A stretch of 64,000 nt of DNA from Succinispira mobilis DSM 6222 (GTDB lineage Bacteria; Bacillota; Negativicutes; Acidaminococcales; Succinispiraceae), in the NCBI RefSeq assembly GCF_000384135.1, contig NZ_KB913028.1:895351-959350 (forward strand), written 5' to 3'. Position numbers and translations under genes: made by a program. Positions 3,445-61,515 of the stretch are shown here, piece by piece; position 1 is the first letter of the stretch; each line of letters begins with the position of its first letter. The notes under the pieces are model-generated. The model had not been told where the DNA came from and ran no database searches. It saw only the letters and a program-made list of their open reading frames with translations.

Positions 3445-3891
3445 TTATAGTTCAATTAATTGGTTTTCAGCTAAAAACTCTGCTAAGAGGATGGCACTTT
3501 CTTTGGTAATTACTAAGCAATTTTTCAAATGTTCGCGCGTGCCAAACTCATAAGTCATAAGTTCTTTGCAGGATGTAGAATGGAAATGTTCGGAAAACCG
3601 CTGGTGTAGCTCATTGCTAAGTTTATAAATGCCTGGTAAAGTTTTTTCGCGACAATCAGCTCGGCCGACCAAATAACTCAAAACCATGACACTGCCAGAA
3701 AGTGCGCCACAAAAGTCACGAGCTTTACCAATGCCCGCGCCAAAACATGAGGCCAGGCGAATACTCTCCGGGGGAATATTGGTTAATTTACTAGTATTAA
3801 AAGCGTGGAGTATAGATTCAGCGCAGTTGTTACCTTCTTTAAAAGCGGCAACAGCATAAGCGCCAATATCTTCAAGGGCGATTTTGCTCAT
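3445..3891 (-). CDS. C_GCAxxG_C_C family (putative redox-active) protein
   Basis: A 148-residue protein with the cysteine pattern that names this family. NNCAES near residue 22 is followed by SCFGAGIGKARDFCGALSG (residues 48-66), then DCREK, SCKEL and NCLV. Members are predicted to be redox-active or to bind a metal or cofactor through the cysteines, but no reaction is established. It is the last gene of the operon, 26 bases after mtaD and before a terminator. It may therefore act in, or protect, the SAM by-product pathway, but that is inference from position only. Its ribosome site is AAGGAGGTAAT. Confidence 0.8.
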   Translation of the reverse strand: MSKIALEDIGAYAVAAFKEGNNCAESILHAFNTSKLTNIPPESIRLASCFGAGIGKARDFCGALSGSVMVLSYLVGRADCREKTLPGIYKLSNELHQRFSEHFHSTSCKELMTYEFGTREHLKNCLVITKESAILLAEFLAENQLIEL

Positions 3892-3917: not shown

Positions 3918-5192
3918 TTATTTCACTAAATCAAGACCACGTTTGGATACTTCAGCAATTACTTGTGCTTCGTCAATAGTGGTAAGTTTACCGTCGGCAA
4001 CTAGGACTTGGCCGTCTACTAGTACGGTATGAACATCGCTGGAGTTGGCCGAGTAGACTAACAGGGAATTACGGTCATGTTTCGGAGCCCAAGTAAGTTT
4101 GTTCATATCATATAAGACGATATCGGCTTTGTAGCCCACAGCTAATTTGCCTACTTTATCTAAGCCTAGAGCTTGTGCGCCGCAACTTGTACCCATTTCT
4201 AAGGCGGTTTGCGCAGGAATTACTTTGGGATTATCTTCGCGTACTTTATGTAAAAGTGCCGCGAGACGAACTTCTTCTAAAAGATCTAGATTGTTATTGC
4301 TAGACGCGCCATCCGTACCGAGGCCGACAATTAGGCCAGCTTCTAACATTTGTTGAACTGGGGCGATACCACTAGCTAGTTTTAAATTACTTTGGGGGTT
4401 GTGGGCAACACGGACATTTTTCGCTTTCATAAGCTGAATATCTTCTGGGGTAACATGTACGCAATGTGCCGCTAAAACACCTAAGTCTAGCAAGCCTAAA
4501 CTATCCATGTGGGCAATCGGGGTTTTACCGAATTTTTCAATGCAAGTATCGACTTCGAATTTTGTTTCTGATAAGTGGATATGAATTTCAGCTTTAATTT
4601 CTTTTGCTACTTCGATAACTTGTTTTAAATAATCAGGTGGGCAAGTGTAAGGGGCATGAGGCCCAAGCATCGTGGTGATGCGCCCATTAGCAGCGCCGTT
4701 CCATTTTAGGCAGAATTCTTTAGCTTCTAACAAAGACTTATCCGAGTTAGGTGCAACACCGGCTAACCCTCTAGAAAGGCAAGCGCGAATACCACTGGTT
4801 TCTACGGCTTTAGCAACTTCATCCATGAAAAAATACATATCGGCAAAGCAAGTAGTACCAGATTTGAGCATTTCGCCAATGCTCAACAGCGTTCCCCAGT
4901 AAACATCTTCGGCAGTTAAATTAGCTTCGGCTGGCCAAATTTTATTTTCCAGCCAATCCATTAAAAACATGTCATCAGCATAGCTTCTAAACAAAGTCAT
5001 AGCCGCATGGGTATGAGTGTTTACTAGACCAGGGGTGGCAAATTTATTACTACCATCAATTACAACATCAAAATCAAGTTCTGAGGGAAGATTAGGCGTA
5101 ATTGCTGTGATAATATTGTCGCTAATTGTAATGTGGCGGTTTACATATTGCTCATTTTCATAAAGTTCAACATTTTTAATGAGTGTATTCAA
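3918..5192 (-). CDS. mtaD: 5-methylthioadenosine/S-adenosylhomocysteine deaminase
   Basis: A 424-residue amidohydrolase of the MtaD/TrzN/SsnA group. MtaD enzymes remove the 6-amino group of MTA and SAH, giving methylthioinosine and S-inosylhomocysteine; many also accept 5'-deoxyadenosine or adenosine. Metal and catalytic motifs are all visible: HTHAAM near residue 60, HIHLSETKFE near 204, HCVHV near 243, and the GTDGASSNN aspartate near 294. The ATG lies 3 bases after the aldolase stop, which implies translational coupling. Related family members could be guanine or chlorohydrolases. The neighbours mtnP, mtnA and ahcY make the MTA/SAH assignment much more likely. Confidence 0.88.
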   Translation of the reverse strand: MNTLIKNVELYENEQYVNRHITISDNIITAITPNLPSELDFDVVIDGSNKFATPGLVNTHTHAAMTLFRSYADDMFLMDWLENKIWPAEANLTAEDVYWGTLLSIGEMLKSGTTCFADMYFFMDEVAKAVETSGIRACLSRGLAGVAPNSDKSLLEAKEFCLKWNGAANGRITTMLGPHAPYTCPPDYLKQVIEVAKEIKAEIHIHLSETKFEVDTCIEKFGKTPIAHMDSLGLLDLGVLAAHCVHVTPEDIQLMKAKNVRVAHNPQSNLKLASGIAPVQQMLEAGLIVGLGTDGASSNNNLDLLEEVRLAALLHKVREDNPKVIPAQTALEMGTSCGAQALGLDKVGKLAVGYKADIVLYDMNKLTWAPKHDRNSLLVYSANSSDVHTVLVDGQVLVADGKLTTIDEAQVIAEVSKRGLDLVK

Positions 5193-5195
5193 GGT

Positions 5196-5846
5196 TTAAC
5201 CCTCCTGTAATTTTCGATATTTGGCTAAGTAGAAATTGCGCATAATCGCGATATCTTCTGGCGGTAAAATAACTCCACCCCCAAGTTGTTGGGCTAAGAT
5301 AAAAATTTGCGCAGCTTTTTCGACAATTTCCGCAGCCAATAGGGCCTCATTTAAAGAAATACCACAGGTAACTACACCGTGGTTAGCCAGTAAGACGGCA
5401 CTTTTATCGGCTAGGGCTGTAACTAGATTATTTGCTAGTTCAGCTGTACCAGGCAAAGCATAAGTGGCAACAGCGACATCGCCACCCACAATTTGAATCA
5501 AGTCTTCAATAATAGCGGGGATCGGGCGACGCGCTGCGGCGCAGGCACTGGCATATAGACTATGGGTGTGGACAACAGCTTGTAGTTGGGGGTGTTGGTT
5601 GTATACCGCTAAATGGCAAGCGAGTTCAGAAGAAGGGGGACGATTCCCACTGAGTATTTGACCTTTTAAGTCCACCACCACTAAGTCCTCGATAGTTAAG
5701 AGGTTATAATTACTCCCCGAAGGAGTAATTATAACCTGATTATTTAAGCGTACACTAAGATTACCCCAAGTACCAGCTACGAGATTTTTCGCAACTAGGA
5801 ACTTGCCTGCGGCAAGTAGTTCTTGTTTTAATTTAGTTAACAGCAT
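5196..5846 (-). CDS. Class II aldolase/adducin family protein (MtnB- or Ald2-like)
   Basis: A 216-residue zinc aldolase-fold protein. Glu74 (SSELACH), His93 and His95 (VVHTHS) and His156 (LLANHGVVT) match the usual catalytic and zinc ligands of fuculose-1-phosphate aldolase and methylthioribulose-1-phosphate dehydratase. The neighbours mtnA and mtnP make 5-methylthioribulose-1-phosphate or 5-deoxyribulose-1-phosphate the likely substrate. No gene for the later methionine-salvage enzymes (mtnC, mtnD or mtnW/X) is present. Retro-aldol cleavage to DHAP plus an aldehyde (the DHAP shunt, as with Ald2) is therefore as plausible as MtnB dehydration, and I prefer it. It sits 9 bases after ahcY and 3 before mtaD. 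Confidence 0.8.
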   Translation of the reverse strand: MLLTKLKQELLAAGKFLVAKNLVAGTWGNLSVRLNNQVIITPSGSNYNLLTIEDLVVVDLKGQILSGNRPPSSELACHLAVYNQHPQLQAVVHTHSLYASACAAARRPIPAIIEDLIQIVGGDVAVATYALPGTAELANNLVTALADKSAVLLANHGVVTCGISLNEALLAAEIVEKAAQIFILAQQLGGGVILPPEDIAIMRNFYLAKYRKLQEG

Positions 5847-5855
5847 GGTTTTGGC

Positions 5856-7100
5856 CTACGCTTTGTTTAAGTATTCGATTTGAGCTGTAGTTAGAGAGTC
5901 AATGCTTAAACCGCGTGAAGCTAATTTTAAAGCAGCAACTTGAGTATTTAAATCTTCTGGTAAAGTGTAGAGATGATTTTCTAATTTACCTTTATTGTCT
6001 TGAACATAAAGCATTGCTAACACTTGCATAGCGAAAGATAAGTCCATGATTTCAGTTGGATGACCATCGCCAGCCGCTAAATTTACTAAACGTCCTTCAC
6101 CAATTAGGTTGAGTTTACGACCGTCAGCCATAGTATAAGCCATAATGTTTTTCCTTGCTTCATATGGTTCAACTACGGACATAGCTTTTAAATCTACGAC
6201 ATTTACTTCTAAATCGAAATGACCAGCATTAGATAAAATTGCGCCATCTTTCATTACGGCAAAATGTTCTTTGGTAATAACATCGCAACAACCAGTAACA
6301 GTTACAAAAATATCGCCAACTTTAGCGGCATCATTCATGCTCATAACTTGGTAGCCATCAAACATTGCTTCTACGGCTTTAATTGGGTTAATTTCAGTTA
6401 CGATAACATTGGCACCCAAGCCTTTAGCGCGCATTGCTACGCCTTTACCACACCAGCCATAGCCAGCAACTACCACATTTTTTCCAGCGATAACTAAGTT
6501 GGTAGAGTGCATAATTGCTTCTAAAGAAGATTGGCCAGTACCATAACGATTATCGAAAAGATATTTACAGTAAGCATCATTTACGGCAATCATTGGGAAA
6601 TTTAATTTGTTTTGGCTATCTAAAGCTTTAAGGCGATGTACACCTGTAGTTGTTTCTTCTGAGCCACCGATGATGTTTTTCGCTAAATTAGCTCGTTCAC
6701 CGTGTAATAAAGAAACTAGGTCGCCGCCGTCATCGATAATTAAATCTGGTTCAATATCAAGGGCGCGATGGAGAAATTCATCATATTCCGTAGCAGTACA
6801 GTTGTGAGTCGCAAATACATGAATGCCACTTTCTACGAGAGCTGCAGCAATATCGTCTTGAGTGGAAAGGGGATTACTACCGGTTATCGCTACTTCAGCA
6901 CCAGCATTTTTCAATACTTGCGCTAGGTAGGCAGTTTTAGCTTCTAAGTGAATGGTTACTACCATTTTTTTACCAGCAAAAGGTTTGCTTTGTGACAAAC
7001 GCGCATCTAGGTCTTTAAGTACGGGCATGTATTCTTTTACCCAAGCGATTTTTTGGTGTCCTGTTTTAGCTAGATTAATATCACGGATCATACTTTTCAT
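5856..7100 (-). CDS. ahcY: Adenosylhomocysteinase (short form, possible S-inosylhomocysteine hydrolase)
   Basis: A 414-residue AhcY-family protein. It splits S-adenosylhomocysteine (or S-inosylhomocysteine) into homocysteine and a nucleoside, using bound NAD. Visible are the substrate-binding N-terminal domain (HLEAKTAYLA near 52, THNCTATEYDE near 99), GGDLVS, and NDAYCKYLFDNRYGTGQS near 194. The NAD-binding loop GYGWCGKGVAMRAKGLGA is near 219, then SNAGHFD. It lacks the C-terminal Lys/Tyr extension that closes the NAD site in the long bacterial and human enzymes. This short form is shared with Thermotoga and methanogens, where an S-inosylhomocysteine hydrolase is known. The operon's mtaD supports that possibility. 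Confidence 0.92.
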   Translation of the reverse strand: MKSMIRDINLAKTGHQKIAWVKEYMPVLKDLDARLSQSKPFAGKKMVVTIHLEAKTAYLAQVLKNAGAEVAITGSNPLSTQDDIAAALVESGIHVFATHNCTATEYDEFLHRALDIEPDLIIDDGGDLVSLLHGERANLAKNIIGGSEETTTGVHRLKALDSQNKLNFPMIAVNDAYCKYLFDNRYGTGQSSLEAIMHSTNLVIAGKNVVVAGYGWCGKGVAMRAKGLGANVIVTEINPIKAVEAMFDGYQVMSMNDAAKVGDIFVTVTGCCDVITKEHFAVMKDGAILSNAGHFDLEVNVVDLKAMSVVEPYEARKNIMAYTMADGRKLNLIGEGRLVNLAAGDGHPTEIMDLSFAMQVLAMLYVQDNKGKLENHLYTLPEDLNTQVAALKLASRGLSIDSLTTAQIEYLNKA

Positions 7101-7161: not shown

Positions 7162-8205
7162 TTAAAGTTGATGTTGCTTTCGAAAGGCGAGAATTTTAGC
7201 AGCCGTAGGTTGCTGAATAACTCCGTACTCGGTAATGATGCCTTGAATATAGGCCGCTGGAGTTACATCAAAAGCTGGGTTAAAAACTGGCATAGCCGGT
7301 GGCGTAGTTGCCACACCTTGAATACTTTGAACTTCTAGGGCACTACGTTCTTCAATTGGAATTGCTTCGCCATCTACTAAAGAAAAATCAAAAGTCGAGA
7401 TGGGAGCAGCAATATACAACGGAATTTGGTGTTCTTTAGCGAGTACAGCTAAAGAATAAGTACCGATTTTATTGGCCGTATCGCCATTTTGGGCAATGCG
7501 ATCAGCACCGACAACGATAGCTTGGATCATTTTGTTTTTCATAACCCAACCAGCCATATTATCAGTTATCACAGTTACGGGCACGCCAGCTTGTTGTAAT
7601 TCAAAACTAGTTAAACGTGCGCCTTGTAAAAGCGGACGTGTTTCATCAGCATAAACCATGCCAATTTTATGTTGTTGATGGGCGACTTTTATTACACCTA
7701 AAGCTGTACCAATGCCGCAAGTTGCCAGAGCGCCTGCATTGCAGTGGGTTAGGATGTTTATTTGTTCGGTAAATAACGCCGCACCATATTCACCAATTTT
7801 TTGATTGGCTTGAACATCATCTTGATAAATGCTAAGAGCCGTTTGCTCTAGGGCAGTTATCAGCTCAGCTACTGTTTGACAAGTAGCTGTTAGCGCAAAA
7901 GTTTTTTCTAAGGCCCAAAACAAATTAACTGCTGTAGGCCGAGCTGCCGCAATTTCTTGTTGGCAGTTTTTTAGTTGGTTGACAAATTCCGAATAAGAAA
8001 GTTGCTGTGCGCTTAGCTCTAAGGCTGCTAAAACTAAAGCAAAAGCCGCAGCCGCGCCGATAGCTGGCGCACCTCTTACTTCTAGGCGTTTGATAGCCAA
8101 GGCTACACGTTGATAATCAGTACAGGTAATATATTCTTCAATTAGCGGCAATTTAGTCTGATCTAATAAAATCAACTGCTTTGCCGTCCAAGACATGGTT
8201 TTCAT
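7162..8205 (-). CDS. mtnA: S-methyl-5-thioribose-1-phosphate isomerase
   Basis: MtnA converts the aldose methylthioribose-1-phosphate (or 5-deoxyribose-1-phosphate) to the ketose, using no cofactor. The 347-residue length is normal. The eIF2B-like fold is recognised from RGAPAIGAAAAFALVLA near residue 44 and the catalytic Cys loop NAGALATCGIGTALG. The catalytic Asp loop GADRIAQNGDTANKIGTY follows. The ATG shares its first base with the mtnP stop codon (TAATG), so the two are translationally coupled. A second in-frame ATG three codons later is also possible. The product feeds the class II aldolase two genes downstream. Confidence 0.95.
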   Translation of the reverse strand: MKTMSWTAKQLILLDQTKLPLIEEYITCTDYQRVALAIKRLEVRGAPAIGAAAAFALVLAALELSAQQLSYSEFVNQLKNCQQEIAAARPTAVNLFWALEKTFALTATCQTVAELITALEQTALSIYQDDVQANQKIGEYGAALFTEQINILTHCNAGALATCGIGTALGVIKVAHQQHKIGMVYADETRPLLQGARLTSFELQQAGVPVTVITDNMAGWVMKNKMIQAIVVGADRIAQNGDTANKIGTYSLAVLAKEHQIPLYIAAPISTFDFSLVDGEAIPIEERSALEVQSIQGVATTPPAMPVFNPAFDVTPAAYIQGIITEYGVIQQPTAAKILAFRKQHQL

Positions 8206-8996
8206 TAAACTTTAAAGCCTCCTATTTCTGTGGCAGCTTGGAAGCAATTGCAAGTACAATCAGAATTACGCGCGGCAACAATTGACAGGCGTAATAAATT
8301 TTGTAGTTCTAATTTTTTTACTTCCATTATATCGACAACTTCTTTAAAGGTAAGATTGTTTTTCGTAATGCCAGCGGCATAGTTGGTAATTAAACAAATT
8401 GTGGCGTAACACATTTCGGCTTCTTTAGCTAAAACACATTCGGGAACATTGGTCATGCCCACAACTGTGCCACCTAAATGCTGAAATACTTTTATTTCGG
8501 CTTTGCTTTCATAGCGTGGCCCTTCAGCACAAACGTAAATGCCAGTTTTAACCATCGGCAATTGTAAAGTTTGAGCTGCGGTCAAAATATCTTCGCGCAG
8601 ACAAGGGCAATAAGGGTGATTCATATCTACATGCAATACTTTACCCTCTTGACCGTCGAAAAAAGTTGTGGGTCGGCTTTTGGTAAAATCTAAAAAGTCA
8701 TCAACTAAAACAAAGTCGCCAGGGGCGATATGTGGATCTAAAGAGCCGACTGCGGCGGTGGCAATTATTTTAGTTACGCCTAATTTTTTTAAGGCCCAGA
8801 TATTGGCGCGATAATTTACTAAGTGTGGCGGTACGGTGTGTCCGCCACCATGTCTAGTTAAAAATACTACCGCTTGGCCTTCGAGATTACCTTGAACATA
8901 TTCTACCGAGCCATAAGGTGTTGAGATTTGAGCTGTTGTAAGATCTTCAAGCAGTTCTGGGTTATAAACACCGCTCCCACCAATTATTGCTAACAT
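8205..8996 (-). CDS. mtnP: MTA phosphorylase family; base-pocket residues suggest methylthioinosine phosphorylase
   Basis: A 263-residue trimeric nucleoside phosphorylase of the MTAP/PNP family, which splits 5'-methylthio-nucleosides with phosphate into a free base and methylthioribose-1-phosphate. Visible are IIGGSGVY at 4-11, the phosphate residues TRHGGGH at 47-53, RANIWALK near 63, and the GMTNVPECVLAKEAEMCYA helix. The usual MTAP motif T-D-Y-D, whose Asp residues bind adenine, is replaced by T204-N-Y-A207. An Asn at this place is typical of 6-oxopurine-specific phosphorylases. With mtaD in the same operon, methylthioinosine is the more likely substrate. It starts 2 bases after the HAD gene stop. 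Confidence 0.88.
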   Translation of the reverse strand: MLAIIGGSGVYNPELLEDLTTAQISTPYGSVEYVQGNLEGQAVVFLTRHGGGHTVPPHLVNYRANIWALKKLGVTKIIATAAVGSLDPHIAPGDFVLVDDFLDFTKSRPTTFFDGQEGKVLHVDMNHPYCPCLREDILTAAQTLQLPMVKTGIYVCAEGPRYESKAEIKVFQHLGGTVVGMTNVPECVLAKEAEMCYATICLITNYAAGITKNNLTFKEVVDIMEVKKLELQNLLRLSIVAARNSDCTCNCFQAATEIGGFKV

Positions 8997-8998
8997 GA

Positions 8999-9646
8999 TT
9001 ACTCCCCCTTAATAATTTTTAATAAATCGGGCATGTTGTGGATAATATAGTCAGGTTGTGCTTGGCTAGTTAGTGTGCCACTAGGGTAAAGTAAGCTCCA
9101 AGCAACTCCCACAGCAGGTACACCTGCATTATGAGCTGCTTGTAAATCTTGTACACTATCGCCAACCATAAGACATTCGTGCGCGGCTAAATTAAGCGCT
9201 GCTAGTCCATTTAGTACCGGTTCGGGATGGGGTTTGTGATGTTGACATTTATCCATGCCGATTATATCTTCCACATAAGTATGTAAATTAAAAATTTCTA
9301 GACCTCGTTTGGCTGTGTGAGTCATTTTAGATGTAACAATGGCGCATTTAATGCCTAGTTGGCTTAGTTCGTGTAGAGTTTCTTGGACTTTAGGAAAGGG
9401 CTTAATTAGTTTATCATGCATTGTTTCATTATAATGGCGATAAACTTGAATTAATTCTTCCCGTTTTTCGGGTGAATAGGCATACATACTATCGCGCAAA
9501 GTCATCCCCCAATAACTGAGAATTTCTTCCTGGCTAGTAGTTCGACCCAAAACCTTTTCGATAGTGTAATGGAAAGAATCAATAATTAAACCAGTAGTAT
9601 CAACTAACGTACCGTCTAAGTCAAAAAGAATTCCTTTTATTGCCAA
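8999..9646 (-). CDS. HAD-family phosphatase (PpaX/Gph-like)
   Basis: First gene of the operon. The HAD motifs are clear: FDLDGTLVDT (nucleophile Asp), VTSKM (motif II), a Lys in KPHPEPV, and GDSVQDLQAAHNAG (motif IV), with a helical cap between. The closest families are pyrophosphatase PpaX and phosphoglycolate phosphatase. Its substrate is not certain; the position before mtnP suggests a role with a phosphorylated sugar fragment, which is inference. I chose the TTG at 9644-9646 as start because GAGGTG lies 6 bases before it. A GTG at 9679 would add 11 residues but has no good ribosome site. Confidence 0.8.
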   Translation of the reverse strand: MAIKGILFDLDGTLVDTTGLIIDSFHYTIEKVLGRTTSQEEILSYWGMTLRDSMYAYSPEKREELIQVYRHYNETMHDKLIKPFPKVQETLHELSQLGIKCAIVTSKMTHTAKRGLEIFNLHTYVEDIIGMDKCQHHKPHPEPVLNGLAALNLAAHECLMVGDSVQDLQAAHNAGVPAVGVAWSLLYPSGTLTSQAQPDYIIHNMPDLLKIIKGE

Positions 9647-9768
9647 TATTGTCACCTCAACTTGATTATTTACAGACACTAACTCTTATTTTACCATAAA
9701 GTAGGCTAAACGTGCGTATTTTTTGTATTTTTTCTTAGGATAAATTTGTTAACTAACCAAAAAAGATA

Positions 9769-31929: not shown

Positions 31930-32105
31930 AACGTTCTCAGAGATAGCCCTCCACCTTATTCAAGGTGACAGTCGGTCAGCTATTCGCCAACAAACCAGAT
32001 TATAAGTTTTAGCAAAATATAACCTTCGGCAGTCGCCCTTTGGCTTAGATCATCGACGCTACTCTCCCTAAGTTACTAATGCTACCCGCACCTCTACTCT
32101 CGTAG
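31930..32105 (-). promoter_or_regulatory. Lysine riboswitch (L box)
   Basis: The minus strand carries the conserved blocks of the lysine aptamer in order. They are AGAGGTGCG (about 32092), AGTA and GGGAGAGTAGCGTCG in the first helices, TGCCGAAGG, a TTTGCT / CTGG region, CTGTCACC and finally TGGAGGGCTATCTC (about 31937-31950). These match the Bacillus subtilis lysC leader block for block. High lysine should favour the downstream terminator and shut off dapB-asd-lysC-dapA. Confidence 0.92.
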
Positions 32106-61295: not shown

Positions 61296-61326
61296 ATAAA
61301 AAAGCGTCCTACAAAATGTAGGACGC
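61296..61326 (-). terminator. T-box controlled terminator
   Basis: On the minus strand, GCGTCCTACA and its exact complement (61317-61326 and 61304-61313) enclose three bases and run into six T residues. It is the terminator that the T-box antiterminator competes with. Confidence 0.92.
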
Positions 61327-61515
61327 GAAAATGCGTGGTACCACCATACTTCGTTAAATAAAAAATTTAACCTCAAATGCTGATAACGGCAGCAACCGAT
61401 GTGTTCTTCGCACATTGCTCAGGGGTGGCTTTCTTTGTTGCTTTTTACCATTTCTCACTTACATGGCTCACTTTGAAAAAAATCACAAATACTTCTTCCC
61501 ATCATTGCGTAACTG
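61327..61515 (-). promoter_or_regulatory. T-box riboswitch, alanine-specific (tRNA-Ala)
   Basis: The minus strand holds a full T-box leader for the aminotransferase. It has GAAGTA (the AGTA loop), a stem arm TTTGT paired with ACAAA, and the specifier loop GAAAGCCACCCCTGAGC. The specifier triplet is GCC (plus-strand 61427-61429), which codes for alanine. The T-box bulge block TGGTGGTACCACGC is at 61333-61346 and would pair with an ACCA tRNA end, as in tRNA-Ala. Uncharged tRNA-Ala should release the terminator and switch the aminotransferase on. The same loop in the glyQS leader reads GAAAGGCA with a glycine triplet. Confidence 0.92.

Follow-up and report, generated by a model that had tools for sequence, protein, structure and literature searches.

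Recycling of S-adenosylmethionine by-products through inosine forms has so far been described mainly in some Euryarchaeota and related thermophilic bacteria. Methanocaldococcus jannaschii has MtiP, DadD, SIHH, MtnA and a fuculose-type aldolase (PMC6302742, PMC10978960), and its SahH is the founding S-inosylhomocysteine (SIH) hydrolase. In Pseudomonas aeruginosa the methylthioinosine (MTI) phosphorylase MTIP, whose structure was solved with hypoxanthine (PDB 3ozb), has an MTA deaminase as its partner in the cell. Koeppl et al. (2024) found in assays that the motif HxExK marks SahH enzymes preferring SIH, and HxTxE(Q) marks those preferring SAH; the lysine of HxExK touches O6 of inosine (PMC10978960). 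Clusters of a phosphorylase, an isomerase and an aldolase were proposed by Beaudoin et al. (2018) for 5'-deoxyadenosine disposal, with direct phosphorolysis of this nucleoside drawn (PMC6079011).

The window analysed here is a stretch of 64,000 nucleotides from the genome of Succinispira mobilis DSM 6222 (2.09 Mb, one contig). It contains a tight operon on the minus strand, in the order HAD phosphatase, phosphorylase, mtnA, sahH, class II aldolase, amidohydrolase (Table 1). The phosphorylase gene and mtnA overlap by one base. The initial annotation had placed an MtaD in this operon, and the amidohydrolase is indeed similar to MTA/SAH/5'-deoxyadenosine deaminases: its solved relatives include 4f0r, named as an MTA/SAH deaminase, and TM0936 (1p1m/2plm). 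It scores under all NCBIfam equivalog cut-offs; the group is MtaD/DadD, and the substrate is a prediction. From (methylthio/deoxy)ribulose-1-phosphate the aldolase is predicted to yield DHAP and an aldehyde. The HAD gene has this first place in many other operons of the order and is hardly ever found beside the same kind of phosphorylase (N-type, see below) elsewhere; its product might dephosphorylate excess 5-deoxy- or methylthio-pentose phosphates.

Table 1. Genes of the operon and diagnostic residues of their products (positions in the window)
Feature	Positions	Strand	Basis
HAD-family phosphatase, operon head	8999..9679	-	ORF, profile search
Phosphorylase (annotated MtnP/MTAP), predicted 5'-methylthioinosine / 5'-deoxyinosine phosphorylase, 263 aa	8205..8996	-	ORF, profile and structure comparison
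Glu163 = human PNP E201 = human MTAP S178, third base-contact position	8508..8510	-	alignment
T204-N205-Y206-A207 = human MTAP T219-D220-Y221-D222	8376..8387	-	alignment with 1cb0
Phe217 = human PNP H257 (5'-OH contact)	8346..8348	-	alignment
MtnA, (methylthio/deoxy)ribose-1-phosphate isomerase	7162..8205	-	profile search
SahH, short archaeal-type, predicted SIH preference	5856..7100	-	sequence
SahH H51-L-E-A-K55 = HxExK, published SIH-preferring fingerprint	6936..6950	-	sequence and PMC10978960
Class II (fuculose-1-phosphate-type) aldolase	5196..5846	-	solved relatives include 6btd/6btg
Amidohydrolase, MTA/SAH/5'-deoxyadenosine deaminase group (MtaD/DadD)	3918..5192	-	solved relatives

A small cysteine-containing ORF of 148 aa (3445-3891, minus strand) lies 26 bases downstream of the deaminase gene, in the same orientation, and may belong to the operon transcript. 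No regulatory RNA was found upstream of the operon in an Rfam search of the window; the matches elsewhere, at 31936-32104 and 61316-61514 (minus strand), are a lysine riboswitch and a T-box leader. Scanning for promoters and terminators gave nothing above shuffled sequence. Near codon 40 of the aldolase ORF (5701-5737 in the window), two perfectly complementary 16-base arms flank a loop of five bases; this inverted repeat reads AGGTTATAATTACTCC-TTCGG-GGAGTAATTATAACCT on the coding strand and occurs once in the genome. An mRNA hairpin this strong inside a coding sequence is unusual.

In PNP, E201 and N243 bind the 6-oxopurine; in MTAP, D220 and D222 bind adenine. The initial annotation had read T-N-Y-A at residues 204-207 of the phosphorylase in place of T-D-Y-D of adenine-specific MTA phosphorylases, and this reading is exact. 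Alignment with human MTAP (PDB 1cb0) sets N205 against D220, A207 against D222 and E163 against S178, and the MTAP set Ser178/Asp220/Asp222 is absent. Alignment with human PNP pairs E163 with E201, N205 with N243 and F217 with H257; the Glu201 and Asn243 equivalents are present, and the His257 equivalent is Phe217. P. aeruginosa MTIP has E/N/A at the three base-contact positions and Met at the fourth, the H257 place. Human and Sulfolobus MTAP have S/D/D, unlike the E/N/A observed here. All three residues E163/N205/A207 are those of P. aeruginosa MTIP, E163 and N205 are also those of human PNP, and none is that of MTAP. The asparagine had been proposed to be of the kind found in 6-oxopurine phosphorylases, and N205 does coincide with both N243 of PNP and the Asn of P. 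aeruginosa MTIP. E163, F217 and the HLEAK motif of the operon SahH are additions to the initial annotation.

The AlphaFold2 model of the phosphorylase, made from an eight-sequence alignment (mean pLDDT 81.4), adopts the MTAP/MTIP fold, with 3ozb among the top structural matches (TM-score 0.86 by 3ozb length). Identity to P. aeruginosa MTIP is about 37% in the model alignment. Of 112 N-type homologues, 98 have His at the H257 position, where this protein has Phe. Phe217, a single residue considered in the pocket of one subunit, hints that the enzyme may favour 5'-deoxy and 5'-methylthio nucleosides over inosine.

We searched 199 genomes across the phylum with TIGR01694 and took 120 regions, seven of them from order relatives. 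The 123 phosphorylase genes counted (119 sample genomes plus order relatives, the window's own gene included) fall into 101 N-type and 22 D-type (TDYD) genes. In the residue alignment, all 113 N-type rows (P. aeruginosa MTIP among them) share E163 and N205, and position 207 is A in 95, G in 13 and C in 5; S/D/D is present in all 25 D-type rows, which include two reference MTAPs. Order relatives have T-N-x-[A/G/S] in 29 of 29 aligned loci; the nearest order-level relatives have mostly T-N-M-[AG], as do the named Phascolarctobacterium and Acidaminococcus loci. The N-type motif also occurs in named loci of other phyla and of archaea, and a Methanothermococcus homologue has both TNYA and the Glu equivalent to E163. 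On a tree constructed with the motif masked, N/D changes once, with branch support 98. The N-type and D-type proteins are two old, separate subfamilies under one NCBIfam name, and the N-type subfamily is the commoner of the two in this phylum. A local loss of the Asp pair in this protein was rejected, the N-type state being common to all N-type relatives.

A deaminase gene is located within 8 kb of the phosphorylase gene in 76 of 101 N-type cases and in one of 22 D-type cases, the latter being a locus that carries both types. Counted by genome, 84 of 88 N-only genomes encode a deaminase homologue (E <= 1e-60), which leaves four exceptions, compared with 4 of 16 D-only genomes. Six genomes have both types. 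Four of these have a deaminase homologue; in every one it is close to the N-type copy, and in three of them it is not close to the D-type copy. Fisher's test gives p of about 1e-9 for the neighbour association, but such values overstate the case, since the N/D split happened once. A reading of the association as many independent events was rejected, as there is one N/D change on the tree and the independent-pairs test is reduced to one pair. The weight of the neighbour evidence is in a gene order kept across many families, not in p values. The conservation of a deaminase near N-type and not near D-type genes, together with the identity of E163/N205/A207 to P. aeruginosa MTIP, supports the methylthioinosine phosphorylase reading put forward initially. 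In three Acidaminococcus-like loci (L138, L139, L261) the N-type phosphorylase, deaminase and HAD genes stand together and neither mtnA nor the aldolase gene is found within the flanks examined; there the sugar phosphate may go elsewhere.

The motif of the operon SahH is that of the SIH-preferring enzymes, and a preference for SIH is predicted. The SahH of T. maritima, of the same motif class, still takes SAH (PMC10978960), and so the operon enzyme may use both SIH and SAH. In the phylum sample, with the added order relatives excluded, Lys occupies the O6-facing position in 93 SahH sequences (83 HxExK, six HxSxK, four HxTxK). All but one of the 93 are from genomes with a deaminase homologue, compared with none of the four HxTxE sequences. 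The motif classes are clustered on the SahH tree and change four times, and thus the association with the deaminase is partly inherited. There are exceptions. In two D-only genomes an HxExK SahH accompanies a deaminase homologue, so that there, judged by the phosphorylase genes classified, the SahH type tracks the deaminase and not the phosphorylase; two N-type loci have HxTxQ (L235) and HxTxE (L291) SahH. The HxSxK (L156, L164, L166, L179, L182, L185) and HxTxK (L201, L204, L205, L208) proteins stand midway between the published classes of motif; they make up separate clades, and every one comes from a genome with a deaminase homologue.

The rest of the genome has a single further PF01048 protein, whose gene immediately follows a pyrR-like gene and whose sequence, judged by eye, is of the uridine-phosphorylase type. 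Family searches of the genome found no LuxS and no inosine-uridine nucleosidase. There is one PF02578 protein; some members of that family phosphorolyse purine nucleosides. Within the scope of the family searches, SAH recycling must therefore go through SahH, and removal of MTA and 5'-deoxyadenosine through the operon.

Gene order, the residues described above, their conservation, and the co-occurrence of the deaminase, the N-type phosphorylase and the Lys-type SahH were observed directly. From these sequence features it is very probable that the six-gene operon deaminates SAH, MTA and 5'-deoxyadenosine and recycles the inosine forms, with the phosphorylase acting on MTI and 5'-deoxyinosine. 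The amidohydrolase would convert MTA, 5'-deoxyadenosine and SAH into MTI, 5'-deoxyinosine and SIH, and the HxExK hydrolase would split SIH into inosine and homocysteine. Judging by its residues, the phosphorylase would release hypoxanthine and 5-methylthio- or 5-deoxy-ribose-1-phosphate from MTI or 5'-deoxyinosine. E163 is expected on N1-H and N205 on O6/N7, like E201 and N243 of PNP, and A207 would take away the Asp that holds the N6 amino group of adenine in MTAP. MtnA would then isomerise the sugar phosphate and the aldolase would yield DHAP and an aldehyde. MTI is probably not the only substrate: 5'-deoxyinosine is equally likely and inosine is possible.

One alternative is that the name given to the protein is right and that it is an ordinary MTA phosphorylase in which the Asp pair is dispensable. 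The protein scores 300 against the MTAP model TIGR01694 (cut-off 274.85), and the nearest solved sequences are MTAPs. However, TIGR01694 is blind to type, with about 308 bits for an N-type and 309 for a D-type protein, and since these scores are alike, a pass is uninformative on the base. Moreover, the three base-contact positions switch together, to the state of the solved MTIP, and we regard an ordinary MTAP as highly improbable. The protein also scores 258.8 against the MTIP model NF006599 (cut-off 223) and is under the cut-offs of the PNP models. The NF006599 cut-off is cleared by a TDYD archaeal protein too, and the use of HMM names as arbiters of type was rejected. The initial suggestion of a protein mis-named by homology is thus half true: it clears both models, and neither separates the types. 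UniProt presumably has a caution on this phosphorylase family, under the name '6-oxopurine nucleoside phosphorylase', and no use of this term was found in the literature searched.

The other two explanations concern the physiological substrate. A general 6-oxopurine PNP would act mainly on inosine, including that released by the hydrolase, and guanosine, with MTI and 5'-deoxyinosine as side substrates. It would agree with the E/N base contacts shared with human PNP, with the prevalence of His at the H257 position among N-type homologues, and with a genome in which family searches found no other PNP-superfamily purine enzyme and no inosine-uridine nucleosidase; the M. jannaschii counterpart takes six purine nucleosides (PMC6302742). 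However, Phe217 is hydrophobic like the Met of P. aeruginosa MTIP, the context of mtnA and the aldolase points to 5-deoxy sugars, and inosine could fall to the PF02578 protein, so that we consider a general PNP rather unlikely. Another possibility, still a doubtful one, is that the enzyme works in the cell chiefly on 5'-deoxyinosine derived from radical-SAM chemistry, the operon being a 5-deoxyribose disposal system and its use of MTI incidental. The disposal clusters of Beaudoin et al. are a precedent, and the operon has the aldolase branch and not the full methionine salvage set. However, MTI and 5'-deoxyinosine are inseparable by sequence, and in several organisms both sugars are substrates of MtnA and of such aldolases (PMC10986504, PMC6302742).

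On the preferred reading of an MTI/5'-deoxyinosine phosphorylase within a deamination pathway, S. mobilis probably recycles S-adenosylmethionine by-products after deamination, like some methane-producing archaea. A wider proposal, with about even chances of being right, is that a large part of Bacillota, gut Negativicutes among them, routinely deaminates SAH, MTA and 5'-deoxyadenosine before salvaging them. Two unrelated enzymes would then have switched in concert from adenine to hypoxanthine (SahH HxTxE vs HxExK; phosphorylase S/D/D vs E/N/A), and the SahH there would be in effect an SIH hydrolase. If the whole-pathway reading is true, inosine-type recycling is also widespread among mesophilic bacteria. 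Under automatic annotation the two phosphorylase types share the name 'S-methyl-5'-thioadenosine phosphorylase', and therefore models of gut and anaerobic Bacillota would release the wrong base, adenine instead of hypoxanthine, and perhaps have the wrong substrate in SAH recycling. The three residues and HxExK provide a simple rule for correcting the annotation. In the literature searched, most subscription journals being outside its scope, no paper was found that describes N-type phosphorylase, Lys-type SahH and a deaminase as going together across Bacillota.

Human MTAP has the same fold and family (PF01048) and 38% identity, and differs in having S178/D220/D222 for adenine where E163/N205/A207 are found here. 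The phosphorylase-type DHAP-shunt and 5-deoxyribose salvage clusters (PMC6079011, PMC10986504) likewise combine a phosphorylase, MtnA and a class II aldolase. In those schemes, however, MTA or 5'-deoxyadenosine is phosphorolysed directly, whereas here deamination probably comes first, and for N-type clusters the phosphorolysis step of Beaudoin et al. probably needs redrawing in this way. P. aeruginosa MTIP is similar in fold, base contacts, a hydrophobic residue at the H257 place (Met there, Phe here) and the partner deaminase, but the SahH of P. aeruginosa prefers SAH (PMC10978960), whereas the operon SahH has the SIH-type motif. The M. jannaschii enzymes form the same set of steps as predicted here, and Methanothermococcus (L285), whose phosphorylase resembles the N-type proteins in TNYA and the Glu, belongs to the same archaeal order; in S. 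mobilis the genes for the predicted set are in one bacterial operon with that of a HAD phosphatase. P. aeruginosa and M. jannaschii already provide known enzymes of this kind (PMC6302742); what is less familiar is the Bacillota-wide pairing of the hydrolase motif with the deaminase.
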